Source of the DNA: a bacterium
GTDB lineage: Bacteria; Planctomycetota; Planctomycetia; Pirellulales; Pirellulaceae
Assembly: GCA_024743355.1 (NCBI GenBank)
Contig: JANSWS010000020.1
Coordinates: forward strand, 1-40,562
DNA length: 40,562 nucleotides
Reading direction: 5' to 3'
The notes beneath the pieces were generated by a model. The model searched no databases, was not told the DNA's origin, and worked only from the letters and a program-made list of their open reading frames with translations. A program made the position numbers and the translations under genes. Below, in pieces: positions 30,812 through 40,144 of this stretch (within the stretch, counting starts at the first letter, position 1; each line of letters opens with the position of its first letter).

Positions 30812-31051
30812 ACTGGAAGGGCTACTGCTCCCAGCCACGGTCGGTTTCTTCCGGCTCTTGGGCTGGTGAAAGAAAGAGCTCGCCCCAGCCATGACCCAGC
30901 CACGCCGTGCCGTGACCAACGTGACTTCCAAGCCCGCCTCTCAACTGCAAGGGATTAGTCCATATGTTGCAAAATGACGCTCGCATCTTCGATTTGGACG
31001 GAAACCAATCGCGGCAGTGCATAGTCATGCTCGATCAAAAGTTTTCCGATA

Positions 31052-31111
31052 GTCGCCTTTCGCTCCGCGAAAGTAGCGTTTATCCGCAGCTCTCGCGGAG
31101 CGCAGAGCGGC
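31052..31111. repeat. Dispersed palindrome family A, copy 3
   Basis: Left arm and loop (31052-31089) are identical to copy 2, including the upstream TCCGATA; the right arm (31090-31111) is decayed at its outer end. It lies directly in front of the FG-GAP gene start and extends its frame artificially. Confidence 0.88.
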
Positions 31112-31113
31112 CG

Positions 31114-32391
31114 ATGTGCAGCAAACGAGCCTTACTAGCTTCCGACTCTACGCTAAGTAATCGGCTCGATTGTCCTAAGGGGCGACTGGGAGTATTTCGC
31201 CGTCCCATCGCTGAACTGGTACGCGGGTCTGCTGCGATTTTGATTTTGCTTGGTGTTGTCTCGAACGCTGATCCACTGTTCGGACAATCCGCAACTTTCC
31301 AAGTTCGGCCGCTTGCCCTGGACGCGAACGAAGGTATCGCGGCTGCGGATGTCGATCAGGACGGAAGGGTTGATTTGGTGGCGGGCCGGTTCTGGTACCG
31401 CAATCCCGAATGGATTCCACGACCTGTGCGGCAGATCGATGACTGGAATGGCTATGTGGAAAGCAATGGCGACTATGTTTTTGACGTCAACTCAGATGGT
31501 TACCCAGACGTAATTGCGGGTTCCTTTCTACCTACCGAAATCCACTGGTACCAAAATCCAGGCGCGGAAGGACTACGTTTGGGACAGCTCTGGCAAAAGC
31601 ATTTGCTCCTGGATAGCGAACAGTCTCAAAACGAAGGTGGCATGTTGGAGGACTTGGATGGGGACGGTACCCCCGAGTTGATTATCGATCGTTGGAAAAA
31701 GGACACGCCGATGTTGATTCAGCGGCTGGCACCGGTCGAGAGCGATTCACCCAACAAGCATTACCAACTGGTTACCAGCCGCTTGGGTGAAAGTGGTAAT
31801 GGTCACGGCTTGGCGGTGGGTGATCTGAATGGGGATGGTAGAACCGATGTGCTTGTGGGACAGGGATGGTATGAGCAACCCAGCAGCGATCCCTGGACAC
31901 AGCCTTGGAAATTTCACGCCAGCTGGGATCTACACGCCAGTTTGCCAATGCTCGTCGTCGATCTGGACGGAGATGGCCGGCAGGATCTGATCTATGGTAA
32001 CGGCCATGATTACGGTTTGTTCTGGTGGCAGAACTTGGGGTTGGATGAAAGTGGTACTCCGAAATGGAAGGAGCATTTGATCGATCGCGAATATAGCCAG
32101 CCGCACTGTCTGGCATGGGCCGACTTGGACGGGGATGACCAGCCGGAACTGATTACGGGCAAACGCTACTATGCCCATAACGGCAAGGATCCTGGCGGCC
32201 AAGAAATGCCATGCATGTACTATTACACCTGGGATTCGCAGAAGCTCAGCTTTACGCGGCATACGATTGATGAAGGCCACGTGGGGACAGGTCTGCAAAT
32301 TGTTACTCAAGACTTTGACCAGGATGGAGATACCGACATCGCCGTTGCCGGCAAGAGCGGTACCTACCTCATCACCAACATGCTCAAGTAG
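31114..32391 (+). CDS. Secreted FG-GAP/VCBS repeat protein
   Basis: 425 residues. An N-terminal hydrophobic segment (about 37-50, SAAILILLGVVSNA) after basic residues looks like a signal peptide ending near FGQ. The body is a beta-propeller of FG-GAP repeats with at least seven calcium-loop motifs: DVDQDGRVD, DVNSDGYPD, DLDGDGTPE, DLNGDGRTD, DLDGDGRQD, DLDGDDQPE and DFDQDGDTD. Such proteins bind sugars or surfaces outside the cytoplasm; the ligand is unknown. The frame is open from 30964, but that part runs through palindrome copy 3, so I start at the ATG at 31114; a start even closer to the signal peptide is possible. Confidence 0.85.
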   Translation: MCSKRALLASDSTLSNRLDCPKGRLGVFRRPIAELVRGSAAILILLGVVSNADPLFGQSATFQVRPLALDANEGIAAADVDQDGRVDLVAGRFWYRNPEWIPRPVRQIDDWNGYVESNGDYVFDVNSDGYPDVIAGSFLPTEIHWYQNPGAEGLRLGQLWQKHLLLDSEQSQNEGGMLEDLDGDGTPELIIDRWKKDTPMLIQRLAPVESDSPNKHYQLVTSRLGESGNGHGLAVGDLNGDGRTDVLVGQGWYEQPSSDPWTQPWKFHASWDLHASLPMLVVDLDGDGRQDLIYGNGHDYGLFWWQNLGLDESGTPKWKEHLIDREYSQPHCLAWADLDGDDQPELITGKRYYAHNGKDPGGQEMPCMYYYTWDSQKLSFTRHTIDEGHVGTGLQIVTQDFDQDGDTDIAVAGKSGTYLITNMLK

Positions 32392-35184: not shown

Positions 35185-36726
35185 CTAGCGGAAGGTCGAT
35201 TGCAGACTCAGCAGCCGATTACCCCGCTGGATGATCATGCGGTAGGAGTTTTCGGCTTGATCGAAGGCTTGTTCCAAGTCTTTGATCGAGTTGACCGCCA
35301 CATCGTTGATTTCCAAAATCACATCGCCAGGGCGAATGCCCATTTGTGCTCCTGCTCCGCGACGGTCAATTTGAGTTACTACGACTCCGCTGTCCGTTTC
35401 CAATTCGCGCTTCATTCGGGGCGTTAGTTCTTGAACTACGATGCCCATGGAAGCGATTTCGGATTCCGGCAGTATGCTGCTGATTCGCTCTTCATTCAGC
35501 TCGCCGGTAGTGACTGCCAGATTGAACGGCTGTCCCTGCCGAAAACCTTCGAAAATTAGCTGCGTACCCGGACGCGTCATGGCCACCGCGTTGCGCAACT
35601 GGGCGATCGAGCGTATGGGCCGACCATTCAGACTGGTTACCACGTCGCCGGGTTGCAGCCTTCCTTGATCTGCAGGTCCACCTTTTTCGACCACTTCGAT
35701 AGCCGCGCCACGCAGCACGCCGGCAGGCAAGCGATATTCGGCAGCGTTTTCCGCAGTCACATCCGCCAACAGAGCACCGATGTAGCCTCGGACCACCCGC
35801 CCGTTGGACTTTAAGTCCTCCACGATGCGGCCCGCCATATTGCTGGGAATCGCGAATCCGACACCCGCGTTGGTGCCCGTCCTTGAGTTGATTGCTGTGT
35901 TGATTCCGATGACTTCTCCCCGCAAATTGATCAACGGGCCGCCACTGTTTCCGGGATTGATAGCTGCATCCGTTTGCAGAAAGTCCTCGTAGCCGCCCGA
36001 GATGATCTCCGCTTGGCGGTTGGTGGCAGAAATAATCCCCGCGGTTACTGTTTGGTCCAAGCCGAAGGGACTGCCAATGGCGATCACCCAATCACCTACT
36101 TGCATGGCGGATGAATCTCCTAGCCTGGCAGCCACCAGATTGCCCGCGTCAATCTTCAGAACGGCCACATCGCTCTTCGAATCTGTACCGATAACTTCCG
36201 CTTCGAAGGTGCGGCCATCGCTCAGTTCGACTTGGAGTTCGTCGGCACGACTGACGACGTGGTTGTTGGTCAGGATGTAGCCATCTGGAGAAACGATGAC
36301 GCCGGAACCCAAGCCCGTCTGAACCTTGCGGCGGTCCGAGCGTCCATTCAGCTCGGGCTCCTCCGGTTCGACTTCTTCCAGACCACGCAGCTGTTCGAAA
36401 AGTTCGTCAGGAATCATGCCTCGCAAATCCTCCAAATCCCGGAAGCCGAAGCTGTTCCCGCCCATCCGAACTTGCATCCGCGAGGGCTCGCTTAAAGAAG
36501 TGATCGTCACAACGGAAGGTCTCAATATCTTGGCTGCGTAGCGAAAAGCATCGGACAGCCGGTCGGCGCCGATCAGCCGCTCTTCCTGGTCCGCATCCGT
36601 CGCCAAAGGCTGCTGTGCGAGTAACGAAGATGCATCCAACAAGTTCATGGAGGCCATTGCAATCAACAGCCCGCTCGCAAGGTAGACCGTAGAAGAGTGA
36701 CGAAAACTCAGGAGTTTTGCTGTCAT
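35185..36726 (-). CDS. Periplasmic serine protease, HtrA/DegP (Do) family
   Basis: 513 residues: signal peptide (about 14-38, ending LLAQQP), trypsin-like domain with catalytic His156 (TNNHVV), Asp186 (SKSDVAVL) and Ser261 (NPGNSGGPL), and two PDZ domains (about 300-400 and 420-513). An acidic loop (EEVEPEEPE, about 117-125) precedes the protease core, at the position of the regulatory LA loop. It degrades or holds misfolded envelope proteins. Start: ATG at 36726 with a near-perfect GGAGGAA 5 bases upstream; the longer frame to 36786 is rejected. Symbol degP/degQ cannot be separated by sequence alone. Confidence 0.95.
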   Translation of the reverse strand: MTAKLLSFRHSSTVYLASGLLIAMASMNLLDASSLLAQQPLATDADQEERLIGADRLSDAFRYAAKILRPSVVTITSLSEPSRMQVRMGGNSFGFRDLEDLRGMIPDELFEQLRGLEEVEPEEPELNGRSDRRKVQTGLGSGVIVSPDGYILTNNHVVSRADELQVELSDGRTFEAEVIGTDSKSDVAVLKIDAGNLVAARLGDSSAMQVGDWVIAIGSPFGLDQTVTAGIISATNRQAEIISGGYEDFLQTDAAINPGNSGGPLINLRGEVIGINTAINSRTGTNAGVGFAIPSNMAGRIVEDLKSNGRVVRGYIGALLADVTAENAAEYRLPAGVLRGAAIEVVEKGGPADQGRLQPGDVVTSLNGRPIRSIAQLRNAVAMTRPGTQLIFEGFRQGQPFNLAVTTGELNEERISSILPESEIASMGIVVQELTPRMKRELETDSGVVVTQIDRRGAGAQMGIRPGDVILEINDVAVNSIKDLEQAFDQAENSYRMIIQRGNRLLSLQSTFR

Positions 36727-36955
36727 GAGTTCCTCCGAACGAAATCGTTTAGCGTTTTCCTGAAAAAACCTAAGTCTTTGATTCACTTGTATTTATTTCA
36801 CGTGATCGAGGCAAGTTCAGTGAAGGAGCGAAGTGAGTTTCCCCCCATAAATGGCGAGAATTCTCAGGCCTGTTCCAACTTGAAATCTGTTGCGCTACGC
36901 CGGCATTTGTTGCAGCTCAGACCGATTTTTTTTCAGTTGAGATTCTGAGGGGGCA

Positions 36956-37159: not shown

Positions 37160-37798
37160 CTAATCTGCTGTCAATAGTCTATGCGTCGCGGCCAGTCCGA
37201 AAGCATTTCTTACATTCACATAGCTTGGCAGAGCCAGCAGTAGACCGACCAATGCTCCCATCAAATGGGCCCAGGGAACCGGGATGAAGCTGGTGTCTTG
37301 TACAAATAGAACATTCCCGCTCACAAACTCGTAGAAAATCTTCCCGCACATGAGCGTCCATAGACCCGCAAACAGCCATGCTCTTTTGTCTTGGGACTTA
37401 AACTTATCCAACGCCTGCCGTGCCATGAGCAGGCTGAAGATTGCGGTATCCAGACCACTCAGACCGCGGTAGGTAGCCAGTTCGGGTTGGCAAATGCCCA
37501 GACTGATTGGAATCGCCGCAGCCGCCACCAGCAGAGTCGCATAGTATCGGGTTTGCATCCATGCTTCGCACAGCGCCCCCAGGCTGGCAAACATCAGCAG
37601 GTCCCACAGCAAATGGTCTCCGTTCCAATGCAGCAAGTGGCAGACGAGCAGGTTGGGCGAAGCCCATCGGTTCGTCCCGATTTGGTCCAGCCCCAGACTG
37701 TCAACCATTCCAGAAAAGCAAAATGCCAGCAGGCACAAGGCCGCCATACCCAGCGTCACCGGATATTGATTGATCACGTTTAAGCTGTCACGCTTCAT
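37160..37798 (-). CDS. Rhomboid-family intramembrane protease, rhombosortase-like
   Basis: 212 residues with about six membrane helices. Rhombosortase-style landmarks: HLLHWNGDHLLWDLLMF (54-70), YRGLSG with nucleophile Ser114, and PWAHLMGALVG with catalytic His178; the Ser-His dyad is therefore intact. Rhombosortases cleave C-terminal GlyGly-CTERM tails of exported proteins. The gene directly upstream encodes a protein with such a tail, suggesting it is the substrate. I chose the ATG at 37798 with GGAG 6 bases upstream; a GTG at 37987 would add 63 residues and reach within 24 bases of the neighbour's stop, and cannot be excluded. Family call is from motifs, not a search. Confidence 0.78.
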   Translation of the reverse strand: MKRDSLNVINQYPVTLGMAALCLLAFCFSGMVDSLGLDQIGTNRWASPNLLVCHLLHWNGDHLLWDLLMFASLGALCEAWMQTRYYATLLVAAAAIPISLGICQPELATYRGLSGLDTAIFSLLMARQALDKFKSQDKRAWLFAGLWTLMCGKIFYEFVSGNVLFVQDTSFIPVPWAHLMGALVGLLLALPSYVNVRNAFGLAATHRLLTAD

Positions 37799-38011
37799 GT
37801 CATACTCCGCGGCATGTTCAGATTTTGCAACTCGCAGCGCGTGCCTTGCTGATTCTCGAGCTTCCGCGTTTGTCAACGGGCGGCGGCCGCGTTTGAGCGC
37901 TATCAGCAACTTGGACTCTTCAACGGAACTCGACGCCAGACCGCATGAGAATACGGTCGGCGCCTGAGTCCTTTCCTGTCCTGTCACAGGCGGCTTCTTA
38001 TGGGCCGCGGG

Positions 38012-40144
38012 CTAACTCTGCTTCAGCTTGCGGCGACGGGCCGCCCAGGCCGAAGCGCCCGCAACTCCGACTGCGACCAGGCCCGTAATCGGATCGATGG
38101 CTCCTCCGCCCGATCCGCCACTGGAGGGTCGCACTCGCGAATCGAAGTTCAGATCACCGGGCCGGTTAATCGTTGGGTCGGTGGATGTTCTAGGTGAACT
38201 CGCGTCCGCTTGGCTGGTTGTTGCAGGTGTCGAACTGCCTGTCTCGCTGCTGGTTGATACCAATTGCTGCTTGCTCGGTCCCAGTTGGGCCAGCGAGGAT
38301 TCACGAAGCGAATCCAACTGTTTACGCAGTTGCGCTTGAGCGGCTCGGTCCTTTCCCACTCGCGTTGCATTTCGGCGTTGAATTGACCAACGGGCGTACT
38401 CGGCGTCGTTTTCCAGAACCAGGAAGGAAGCGTACTCGCTGACAATCGAGTAACCTTCGCACAGTCGCACAATCTCGTCGATCTGTTGATTGGACTTGCC
38501 GTTAACCCGCATGGCATCCATCAAGCCTTGGACGCGCTGATAGGCCCACATCCGCTCGATCTCGGGATTCTGCTCGTTGGATTCGGGGAACTCGAATTCC
38601 AAGGCCTGTTGGAATGGTTGGCCGAGGACTTCCGCGGAAACCGTAATCAGCCCCCGCCCAGGTTTTTCATATCGGCCGCTCAACCAGATGGGGGCTCCGA
38701 AGTACAAATCGGGTAGCTCATCCTCGGTCAAGTCGTAGCTGCCAACGCCTTCAATTTCGATTTTGACATTGGCCGCCACGGGGCGCATCAGCTTTCTGCG
38801 AAAGGCTTGGGCTTGTCGTTGGAAATCATCCTGGTGCGAGACAAACGCGGCGAGTCCGCCAGCATTTTCGGCCACCTGTTTCAGTAGCGGTCGGTTGATG
38901 TCGTTGCCAATACCGATGCAGAACACGCGCGTGCCTGCTGCGGCGGATCGAATGGCGGCCAGTAACTCAGCTTGTTCACGTACCTCCGTCATACCGTCGG
39001 ACAGTACGACGACATTCAAGGGGCGATCCGCATCTCGATAGCGGTAGGCAGTTTCGATGGCAGGACGCAGTTCGGTTCCGCCCTTGGCTCGCTGCGACGC
39101 CAGGAACTCATGGGCTGCTTGCTGGTTGGCATCGGATACCTGGGCGAGTTCCCCAAAGTGTAGATTCGGCGTGGTGTTGAAGGTCATGAGCTCAAAACGA
39201 TCTTCCGCCCCCAAGGCACTGATGAAGCTCTCCACGGCCGCGCGGGACAGGGTTAACTTGCCGTCGTTGGCCATGCTGCCTGAGATGTCCACGACGAACA
39301 CGTAATCCATTCCGGTCGCCAGTTCCTCCAATTCCTTGCCTGCCGTCATCGACAGCAGAAAGTATCCATCCTCATTTTTGAATTTGGATGTAATGAGATC
39401 CAAACCGGTTTGCGGGCGTTCGACGTCATAGGCTATGACCACATCCCGGTTCAGGTCACCTTCGGTTACTTCCAGACTTGCACGCGTGTAATTTGCCGAC
39501 ACGCTGGAGATGACAAAATCCTCTTTGTGCGAGGGACTGACGAGTTGCAGAATCGGGATTTCGCTTTTGACGTCGATTGTGAAAGCGAACTTTCCTTTCG
39601 TGGTTGCATCCACGGGGCCCGTGGTAGTCGTTGCCAGAGGATAGACGTAGGTGGCTTGATTGTGATCAAAGTCCAGTTGTTGATAGTAGGTGATATGGAT
39701 GGGCTGTTCGGCTCCTGCCGGAATGGGGAATACCCTTAATTCAAAGGTCTTGTAATCCACTTGTTCCAACAGCCCCGGATCACGTCGCTGGGTTTTGTAG
39801 CTGCTGTAGATTTCGCGAGCGCGTTCCTTCTCGACGACTTCGCCGATCATTTCCTTGCCATTGATGATCATGCTGAAATTGCTCACGCTAGCGCCGTTAG
39901 GCACTGGAAAGGTGTAGAGAGCTTCGACGATGCGGTTTTCCGTGTTGCGAAAGACCTGGTCGATTTGGGTGACTGCGATTCCGTTATTGATCGTCACGTG
40001 CACCTCCTGTTGGACGATTTCCAGTTTGCCACCGAACCCGCCATCAGCCACCAGCAAACCGGCAGCTTGAGTCGTGGCATGCATCGCTGTTGGTAGCAGC
40101 AAGCTTGCCACAGCCAACAAGTATTTGGGAATTGGATTTGTCAT
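38012..40144 (-). CDS. Exported VIT/von Willebrand A protein with GlyGly-CTERM-like tail
   Basis: 710 residues: signal peptide (about 6-28), VIT domain (about 35-165; ALYTFPVPNGASVSNF and KERAREIYSSYK are typical), vWA domain (about 278-450) with metal-site DISGS (286-290) and Thr/Asp ligands later (KGGTELRPA, VVLSDGMTE), a coiled/linker region, a Ser/Thr/Pro-rich stretch, then GGSGGG (676-681), a hydrophobic helix and RRRK (703-706). Related VIT-vWA proteins of proteobacteria carry sortase tails instead. AGAGGTGG lies upstream of the ATG. The rhomboid protease follows 24-213 bases later on the same strand. Confidence 0.92.
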   Translation of the reverse strand: MTNPIPKYLLAVASLLLPTAMHATTQAAGLLVADGGFGGKLEIVQQEVHVTINNGIAVTQIDQVFRNTENRIVEALYTFPVPNGASVSNFSMIINGKEMIGEVVEKERAREIYSSYKTQRRDPGLLEQVDYKTFELRVFPIPAGAEQPIHITYYQQLDFDHNQATYVYPLATTTTGPVDATTKGKFAFTIDVKSEIPILQLVSPSHKEDFVISSVSANYTRASLEVTEGDLNRDVVIAYDVERPQTGLDLITSKFKNEDGYFLLSMTAGKELEELATGMDYVFVVDISGSMANDGKLTLSRAAVESFISALGAEDRFELMTFNTTPNLHFGELAQVSDANQQAAHEFLASQRAKGGTELRPAIETAYRYRDADRPLNVVVLSDGMTEVREQAELLAAIRSAAAGTRVFCIGIGNDINRPLLKQVAENAGGLAAFVSHQDDFQRQAQAFRRKLMRPVAANVKIEIEGVGSYDLTEDELPDLYFGAPIWLSGRYEKPGRGLITVSAEVLGQPFQQALEFEFPESNEQNPEIERMWAYQRVQGLMDAMRVNGKSNQQIDEIVRLCEGYSIVSEYASFLVLENDAEYARWSIQRRNATRVGKDRAAQAQLRKQLDSLRESSLAQLGPSKQQLVSTSSETGSSTPATTSQADASSPRTSTDPTINRPGDLNFDSRVRPSSGGSGGGAIDPITGLVAVGVAGASAWAARRRKLKQS

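Follow-up and report, generated by a model that had tools for sequence, protein, structure and literature searches.

Two neighbouring genes of a planctomycete, one for a VIT/vWA protein and one for a rhombosortase-like rhomboid, form a real, conserved and dedicated pair, and we consider it likely that they make up a two-gene protein-sorting cassette, in which the rhomboid processes the C-terminal tail of the VIT/vWA protein encoded beside it. The genes are carried on the minus strand of contig JANSWS010000020.1 of a Pirellulaceae bacterium (GenBank assembly GCA_024743355.1), of which the whole stretch of 40,562 nucleotides, referred to as the window, was analysed; in the 8.31-Mb draft of this genome, which consists of 823 contigs, the window is contig C504. 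The rhomboid gene very probably encodes a membrane protease that trims the tail of its neighbour. The pair is recognised by the genes themselves, the tail and its motif, the strict pairing among genomes and the rhombosortase-type features of the enzyme. Its features are as follows.

38012..40144, minus strand: VIT/vWA protein gene, 710 amino acids (open reading frame; Pfam VIT and VWA_3; the sole PF08487 match of the genome)
40064..40144, minus strand: probable signal peptide, about residues 1-27, MTNPIPKYLLAVASLLLPTAMHATTQA (read by eye)
39686..40012, minus strand: VIT domain (PF08487)
38843..39301, minus strand: vWA domain, residues 282-434 (PF13768)
38021..38113, minus strand: sorting tail, GGGAIDPIT plus hydrophobic stretch plus RRRK (tail profile A2, E 3.3e-13, the tail itself being one of the 26 profile rows)
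38090..38104, minus strand: G-A-I-D-P signature (pattern match)
38102-38104 / 38099-38101, minus strand: Gly codon / Ala codon flanking the predicted cut (analogy with VesB)
38039..38089, minus strand: 17-residue Ala/Val/Gly-rich tail stretch, ITGLVAVGVAGASAWAA (read from the sequence)
37160..37798, minus strand: rhombosortase-like rhomboid gene, 212 amino acids from ATG (TIGR03902, 78.3 bits; Pfam Rhomboid, 30.7 bits)
37457..37459, minus strand: predicted catalytic Ser114 codon, in YRGLSGLDT (invariant in 10 of 10 rows of rhomboid profile A1)
37265..37267, minus strand: predicted catalytic His178 codon, in AHLMGALVG (invariant in 10 of 10 rows of A1)

The initial annotation described a VIT/vWA protein of 710 residues ending in a GGSGGG tail and RRRK, and on this point the open reading frame, the Pfam matches (VIT, PF08487, 111 bits; VWA_3, 77 bits) and the sequence agree; both open reading frames of the pair were recovered at the positions that it had assigned to them. 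The C-terminus reads GGSGGG-AIDPITGLVAVGVAGASAWAA-RRRKLKQS, beginning with GGSGGGAIDP and continuing through a short stretch rich in Ala, Val and Gly into RRRK. This is the architecture of GlyGly-CTERM tails, with a Gly-rich motif (GGSGGG, without Cys), a 17-residue stretch and a basic terminal RRRK. The Leu-rich helix of GlyGly-CTERM, which contains 34% Leu over the published set (PMC3237569), is missing from the window tail, where 6 Ala, 3 Val, 3 Gly and a single Leu were counted among the 17 residues, and the hydropathy of the stretch over 19 residues stays below the threshold of 1.4.

The rhomboid reading frame (37160-37987) is open up to a first GTG at 37987, giving 275 amino acids, with the likely start at the ATG at 37798, just upstream of which GGAG is found; numbering from this ATG reproduces the GLSG Ser114 and the His178 of the initial annotation. 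The protein contains HLLHWNGDHLLWD as well as GLSG, and matches Pfam Rhomboid with 30.7 bits against a cut-off of 22.6. Its best NCBIfam match is the rhombosortase model TIGR03902 with 78.3 bits, against 16.2 bits for GlpG (TIGR04239, cut-off 250), of which it is not a member; the earlier preference for a rhombosortase-like enzyme over an ordinary rhomboid is borne out by this comparison. Other rhombosortase features are the catalytic Ser in G-x-S-G and the His in AHxxGxxxG (YRGLSGLDT and AHLMGALVG), and the adjacency of the enzyme gene to the tailed target in a genome with a single target. Six hydrophobic regions, in line with the six helices first proposed, were seen in the hydropathy profile at a lenient threshold of 1.0, but only four at the stricter 1.4, and the AlphaFold model made from two sequences (the enzyme and one relative) reached a mean pLDDT of 44.7, too poor for use, so that the six-helix fold rests mainly on homology. 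The WRxx[ST] motif is lost in all three enzymes of the genus of the window (those of the window, L013 and L014), in which the catalytic residues are retained, and WR is present in most other rows.

In the genome of the window, a PF08487 search detected one VIT protein only. The DNA pattern for GAIDP occurs eight times, that of the window alone forming a C-terminal tail, and tail profile A2 gave three matches at E<=0.5, at 3.3e-13 for the window tail and weaker than about 0.04 for the other two. In a set of 60 genomes including this one, a rhomboid match (E up to 1e-5) was found in 10, and in all 10 a VIT/vWA gene lies directly upstream on the same strand. Close VIT/vWA orthologues, with 54-69% identity to the window protein, are present in 9 of the 60, the same 9 that carry strong rhomboid matches; in the tenth (G023, locus L020) the VIT protein is distant. 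In the remaining genomes, there are VIT paralogues at about 30% identity, matches to vWA alone, or no matches, and a Gly-helix-basic tail was found at none of the 19 paralogue loci judged (of 21; at L049 and L056, where the longest reading frame is another, no judgement could be made). A tblastn search against plasmids gave no match up to E 0.1.

A phylum sample of 392 genomes of the larger group was scanned with rhomboid profile A1, tail profile A2 and a regulator profile, A3, described below; up to 7 (A1), 20 (A2) and 3 (A3) first-look candidates were scored per genome, and the counts are therefore lower bounds. A1 (E up to 1e-8) matched in at least 46 genomes at no fewer than 48 places, two of which are ordinary rhomboids by motif (C602 of the own genome and one in G323). 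The DNA was examined at 47 of these 48 places (all except G328:C85), and a VIT/vWA gene adjoins the rhomboid at 34 of them, with gaps between tail and rhomboid of about 0.6 and 1.1 kb at L065 and L080, respectively. Each of the 23 best A2 matches (E up to 2e-5, a limit chosen after inspection of the list) is on the same strand as an A1 rhomboid and directly upstream of it, at a distance of 0-1112 bp; the next two ranks are taken by an antisense chance match (L133) and by a PEP-CTERM tail (L134), before one more adjacent tail at 5.3e-4. The A2 matches themselves are to be expected because the profile rows came from such pairs, the informative part being that no other tail appeared: at that level, neither a second tail nor a tail in an enzyme-less genome was detected among the 392 genomes. 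One such tail is present per genome at the thresholds used. With a single VIT protein, a single GAIDP tail and strict pairing in the 392-genome tail search, the arrangement of one substrate and one protease proposed in the initial annotation was upheld, and the same tail on many unrelated proteins was not observed.

For profile A2, 26 tails with GA[ILF]DP were selected out of the 42 distinct VIT tails collected by that stage (L077 and L081 fit this pattern and were not included). Positions G2, G4, A5, D7 and P8 are invariant in its 26 rows, the last G, the A, the D and the P being fixed by the selection of rows. An entropy table of 18 of the 21 VIT loci (without L157-L159), anchored on GA[ILFV]DP, hence with G, A, D and P constant by construction, showed that the tail motif is preserved within a hypervariable linker among the relatives. 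Since the motif persists within such a linker and the two genes are kept as a pair in different genomes, the association is more than chance. Among the 35 VIT-type tails of the phylum set, G-A-x-D-P is the commonest form (22), the other 13 being AVDI, CVEW, SIDG, AMDW, AFEP, AIGP, ALGP (2), PVGP, PVNP, AGEP (2) and AGDP.

In a tree built with the active-site columns included and the fragment L100 left out, the window enzyme falls into a clade of 29 rows with moderate support (88/80). At the third position after the catalytic Ser, 28 of the 29 members have Asp, vs none of the 23 other rhombosortase-like rows, and the fourth residue is Ser, Thr or Cys in all 29. The tails that go with this clade are AID (16), ALD (6), AFD (4), AVD (1), SVE (1) and CVE (1). 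The family alignment shows hardly any variation within the clade at Lys216 and Glu220 of helix 5, at Glu141 and in the Y-R-G that precedes L-S-G; the Lys/Glu pair of helix 5 is kept family-wide, and neither of the ordinary rhomboids L002 and L102 shows it. The position aligned to Asn154 of GlpG, which we take to be an oxyanion-hole residue, is Asp in 24 of the 29 members. Enzymes with a small residue at the fourth position after Ser go with an acidic tail in 35 of 37 cases vs 4 of 9 for those with a bulky residue (Fisher p 0.0016). The active-site trait changed independently once on well-supported branches and three times on all branches, and because of this single well-supported change the co-variation of enzyme and tail is unusable as evidence. 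The new subclass suggested in the initial annotation is thus reasonable as a lineage-level variant, but its link between tail and active site cannot be separated from common ancestry.

The pairing itself is already known, and its presence in a planctomycete is not novel as first supposed: Table 3 of PMC3237569 (Haft and Varghese 2011) lists Rhodopirellula baltica SH 1 with a single GlyGly-CTERM gene, which has a rhombosortase gene next to it. That pair, known to us by this table listing, resembles the one in the window in the lone tailed protein beside a rhombosortase, the tripartite tail and the planctomycete host, and the tailed families of the same paper include VIT/vWA proteins like that of the window, the legend of its Figure 3C describing members with GlyGly-CTERM, LPXTG or PEP-CTERM tails. 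In contrast to the classic system, the window tail has A-I-D-P after the glycines and a Leu-poor helix, and the enzyme has neither the WR motif nor a His in the stacking position. The closest studied case is RssP-VesB of Vibrio cholerae, in which a rhomboid likewise cuts at a Gly-Gly motif that is followed by a C-terminal helix and basic terminal residues: the rhombosortase cleaves VesB and exposes the second Gly, which then bears a glycerophosphoethanolamine-containing moiety (PMC6219818). Unlike the window enzyme, RssP serves VesB and five more GlyGly-CTERM proteins, several of which are proteases or a DNase (PMC6219818, PMC13393428). The marine sortase system TIGR03788/TIGR03784 also joins a VIT/vWA protein to a dedicated neighbouring sorting enzyme, but there the tail is LPXTG and the enzyme a sortase; TIGR03788 is the best NCBIfam match of the window protein, with 258.9 bits far below the cut-off of 551.65, LPXTG is absent, and no tail model was listed in this search. 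VIT-type domains are also joined to sorting systems in the VIT proteins of the XrtN system (TIGR04477) and in MSEP-CTERM (TIGR04286), but the window protein scores far under both cut-offs (62.2 bits against 250 and 48.2 bits against 150, respectively).

To the known pairing, the present analysis adds the tail, the active-site variant and an often linked regulator. The tail form GGGA[ILF]DP, unseen by the curated tail model, is a new detail, as is the moderately supported rhombosortase clade with Ser-Gly-x-Asp-[Ser/Thr/Cys]. In the open-licence literature, where PMC3237569 alone was found to deal with rhombosortases and planctomycetes together, we found no description of the AIDP tail, nor a paper on an inter-alpha-trypsin surface protein of planctomycetes.

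For the route from export and membrane orientation through cleavage, cut site and lipid attachment to surface location, we infer the following steps. The VIT/vWA protein would be a Sec substrate; once exported, it would stay in the inner membrane through its C-terminal helix, the basic end of which would lie in the cytoplasm. The rhomboid encoded by the neighbouring gene would recognise the Gly-rich motif together with the first part of the helix, and make its cut there. A cut at GGG|A-I-D-P would leave small residues on both its sides and a hydrophobic residue at P2', in keeping with the preference of rhomboids for small residues flanking the cut and a hydrophobic P2'. By analogy with RssP and VesB (PMC6219818, PMC13393428), the most likely site is between the last Gly and the Ala of GGG-A-I-D-P. 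The new C-terminal Gly may then be joined to an amine-bearing lipid, possibly phosphatidylethanolamine, or be freed by water, and the VIT/vWA domains would end on the outer membrane or outside the cell. A gspE model gave 15 matches on the genome of the window, the best with 619 bits and none over the cut-off of 630; secretion-type ATPases are present, and an outer-membrane route is therefore possible.

Several observations weigh against this sorting cassette. The window rhomboid, with 78.3 bits as a protein and 79.9 in the genome search, misses the TIGR03902 cut-off of 84. The His four residues after the catalytic Ser (SGMLH), a hallmark of virtually all rhombosortases (PMC3237569), is replaced by Thr, and the WRxx[ST] motif of their loop L1 (PMC3237569) is absent, the corresponding sequence being PNLLVC. 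The GlyGly-CTERM model TIGR03501 (cut-off 15.5 bits) does not list the window protein up to E 1. The pair is sporadic, missing from 51 of the 60 genomes, and within the genus of the window the rhomboid was found in 3 of 15 genomes, some of the 12 lacking it being drafts only 73-86% complete. At 13 of the 47 places the rhombosortase-like gene has no VIT/vWA neighbour; one of these, L070, is cut by a contig end and retains a 57-residue tail of the same kind. An experiment on a planctomycete pair was not found in the open-licence literature.

On these points the claims made at the outset divide. That the tail differs from the classic form was confirmed by the failure of TIGR03501 to match; this model also listed none of 10 relatives, where HMMER filters may have discarded weak matches, and gave on the own genome three weak matches, none above the cut-off and the window tail not among them. 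Conservation of the pair in relatives holds in the sense that the two genes are kept together wherever they were found, but not in that of general occurrence. By its sequence features the enzyme appears rhombosortase-like, but is not a full member by cut-off and hallmark His. Rhomboids that pass the TIGR03902 cut-off occur in 30 of the 392 genomes, and 29 of these 30 belong to the 46 with A1 matches; the family taken together is therefore rhombosortase, with the window enzyme as a divergent near-miss.

Among other explanations, it is very improbable that the enzyme is an ordinary housekeeping rhomboid and a chance neighbour of a surface-protein gene. The catalytic Ser and His and the fold are common to all rhomboids, and five further, weaker TIGR03902 matches exist in the genome, as this explanation would allow, but a close VIT orthologue is present in 9 of 9 strong-rhomboid genomes and in 0 of 51 others, a VIT/vWA gene stands beside the enzyme at 34 of the 47 places, and the family-kept Lys/Glu pair of helix 5 sets the enzyme apart from L002 and L102. 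The same cassette might also serve to release the VIT/vWA protein into the medium rather than to anchor it, which we regard as unlikely. Rhomboids are classically releasing proteases. Release and regulated tethering are both considered by Haft and Varghese (PMC3237569), and VesB activity is detected both on cells and in the supernatant (PMC6219818, PMC13393428), but VesB, the substrate of the closest studied enzyme, is left with a lipid-type group and depends on this enzyme for its surface location (PMC6219818).

More room has to be given, though doubtfully, to a canonical GlyGly-CTERM/rhombosortase pair as in R. baltica, in which the AIDP tail and the Asp-Thr residues would be drift and the recognition code unchanged. 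The pairing has been in print since 2011 (PMC3237569), relatives of the same family exceed the rhombosortase cut-off, acidic tails occur outside the Asp clade too, and with one independent active-site change on well-supported branches (three on all) the co-variation is untestable. Drift fits less well with the predominance of G-A-x-D-P (22 of 35) across divergent pairs despite the hypervariable linker preceding it, and with the restriction of Asp at the third position after the catalytic Ser to the clade (28 of 29 members against 0 of 23 other rows).

Enough upstream DNA was available for 16 of 20 relatives fetched, and in 12 of these 16 a divergently oriented gene for a sigma-54 enhancer-binding AAA+ regulator lies no more than about 1.6 kb from the VIT/vWA gene (regulator loci L142-L146 and L150-L156). 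The Pfam domain PF00158 was verified in 5 of these 12 genes, and in the alignment of the regulators a GAFTGA-type loop and a C-terminal DRRTVK are visible. Regulator profile A3 has 12 rows, all from pair loci, 8 of those genomes being within the 392; its matches were found in 10 of 16 pair genomes vs 0 of 14 pair-less genomes. With A1 at 160 bits or more, 18 of the 392 genomes have both rhombosortase and regulator, 4 the rhombosortase only, 25 the regulator only and 345 neither (Fisher p 7e-16), or 10, 4, 25 and 345 without the 8 genomes of A3 rows (p 8e-9); with all A1 matches the numbers are 22, 24, 21 and 325 (p 4e-12), or 14, 24, 21 and 325 without these 8 (p 4e-7), all four tests ignoring the relatedness of the genomes. 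Regulator and rhombosortase are on one contig in 14 of the 22 genomes with both.

In the genome of the window, the regulator homologue (C280:837-2459, locus L166) is unlinked to the pair, with other genes at both sides. A contig split hiding a regulator beside the window was considered and rejected, since the homologue lies between other genes within C280, and none of the 12-mers of this contig recurs in the 150 bases at either end of the window. Sigma-54 sites upstream of the VIT gene, sought at 18 loci, beat at least 99% of shuffles in L143 and L155 only; for the window, 14% of the shuffles contained a site as good as its best one. The regulator is not confined to the pair and elsewhere adjoins other genes. 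In pair-less genomes it was seen near an MFS-acyltransferase-AMP-binding protein (L184, 1351-7766, with Pfam checked in L184; look-alike ends of this neighbour in L170, L183, L185, L186 and L188) and near a radical-SAM protein (L169, 1940-6622); these neighbours are perhaps envelope lipid genes. The co-occurring and often divergently adjacent sigma-54 regulator gene is a new detail, though it is not adjacent in the genome of the window, and neither a pair-linked regulator nor a rhombosortase joined with sigma-54 was found described in the open-licence literature. Tentatively, we propose a Planctomycetota rhombosortase subclass with Ser-Gly-hydrophobic-Asp-[Ser/Thr] that would read GGG|A-hydrophobic-Asp-Pro on one VIT/vWA protein and might be switched by its own sigma-54 enhancer-binding regulator.

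Other proteins and genes were observed beside rhombosortases and within the window. In G377 (G377:C138; L096, 1-2886), a second, more classic-like rhombosortase (SGVLYG) adjoins an M12B reprolysin-type metallopeptidase with the tail GGGPVDPFL, apparently another dedicated pair with another substrate. In L106 (5146-6126) and L107 (3644-4624), the gene before a rhombosortase-like rhomboid encodes a protein of 327 residues whose tail is Gly-rich and tripartite; no Pfam match was obtained for the protein of L106, and no VIT/vWA match at either locus. Within the window, an FG-GAP repeat protein at 30928-32388 is a second candidate surface protein. The next gene downstream of the pair on the same strand (35185-36786) encodes a trypsin-like protease with PDZ domains, of the DegP/HtrA type by architecture, and such a gene is absent from the 14 largest neighbour clusters across the 20 relatives. 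A promoter and terminator scan of the region gave nothing beyond chance level.

Sorting enzymes with many substrates conceal their rules, and cassettes of one enzyme and one substrate in divergent genomes provide matched pairs that expose the recognition code. If it is true that the Asp active site goes with the Asp-Pro tail, the rhomboids would have a second, separable specificity. Control of such a sorting system is a possibility already raised in PMC3237569, which names no regulator; the linked regulator gene is a candidate for this role.

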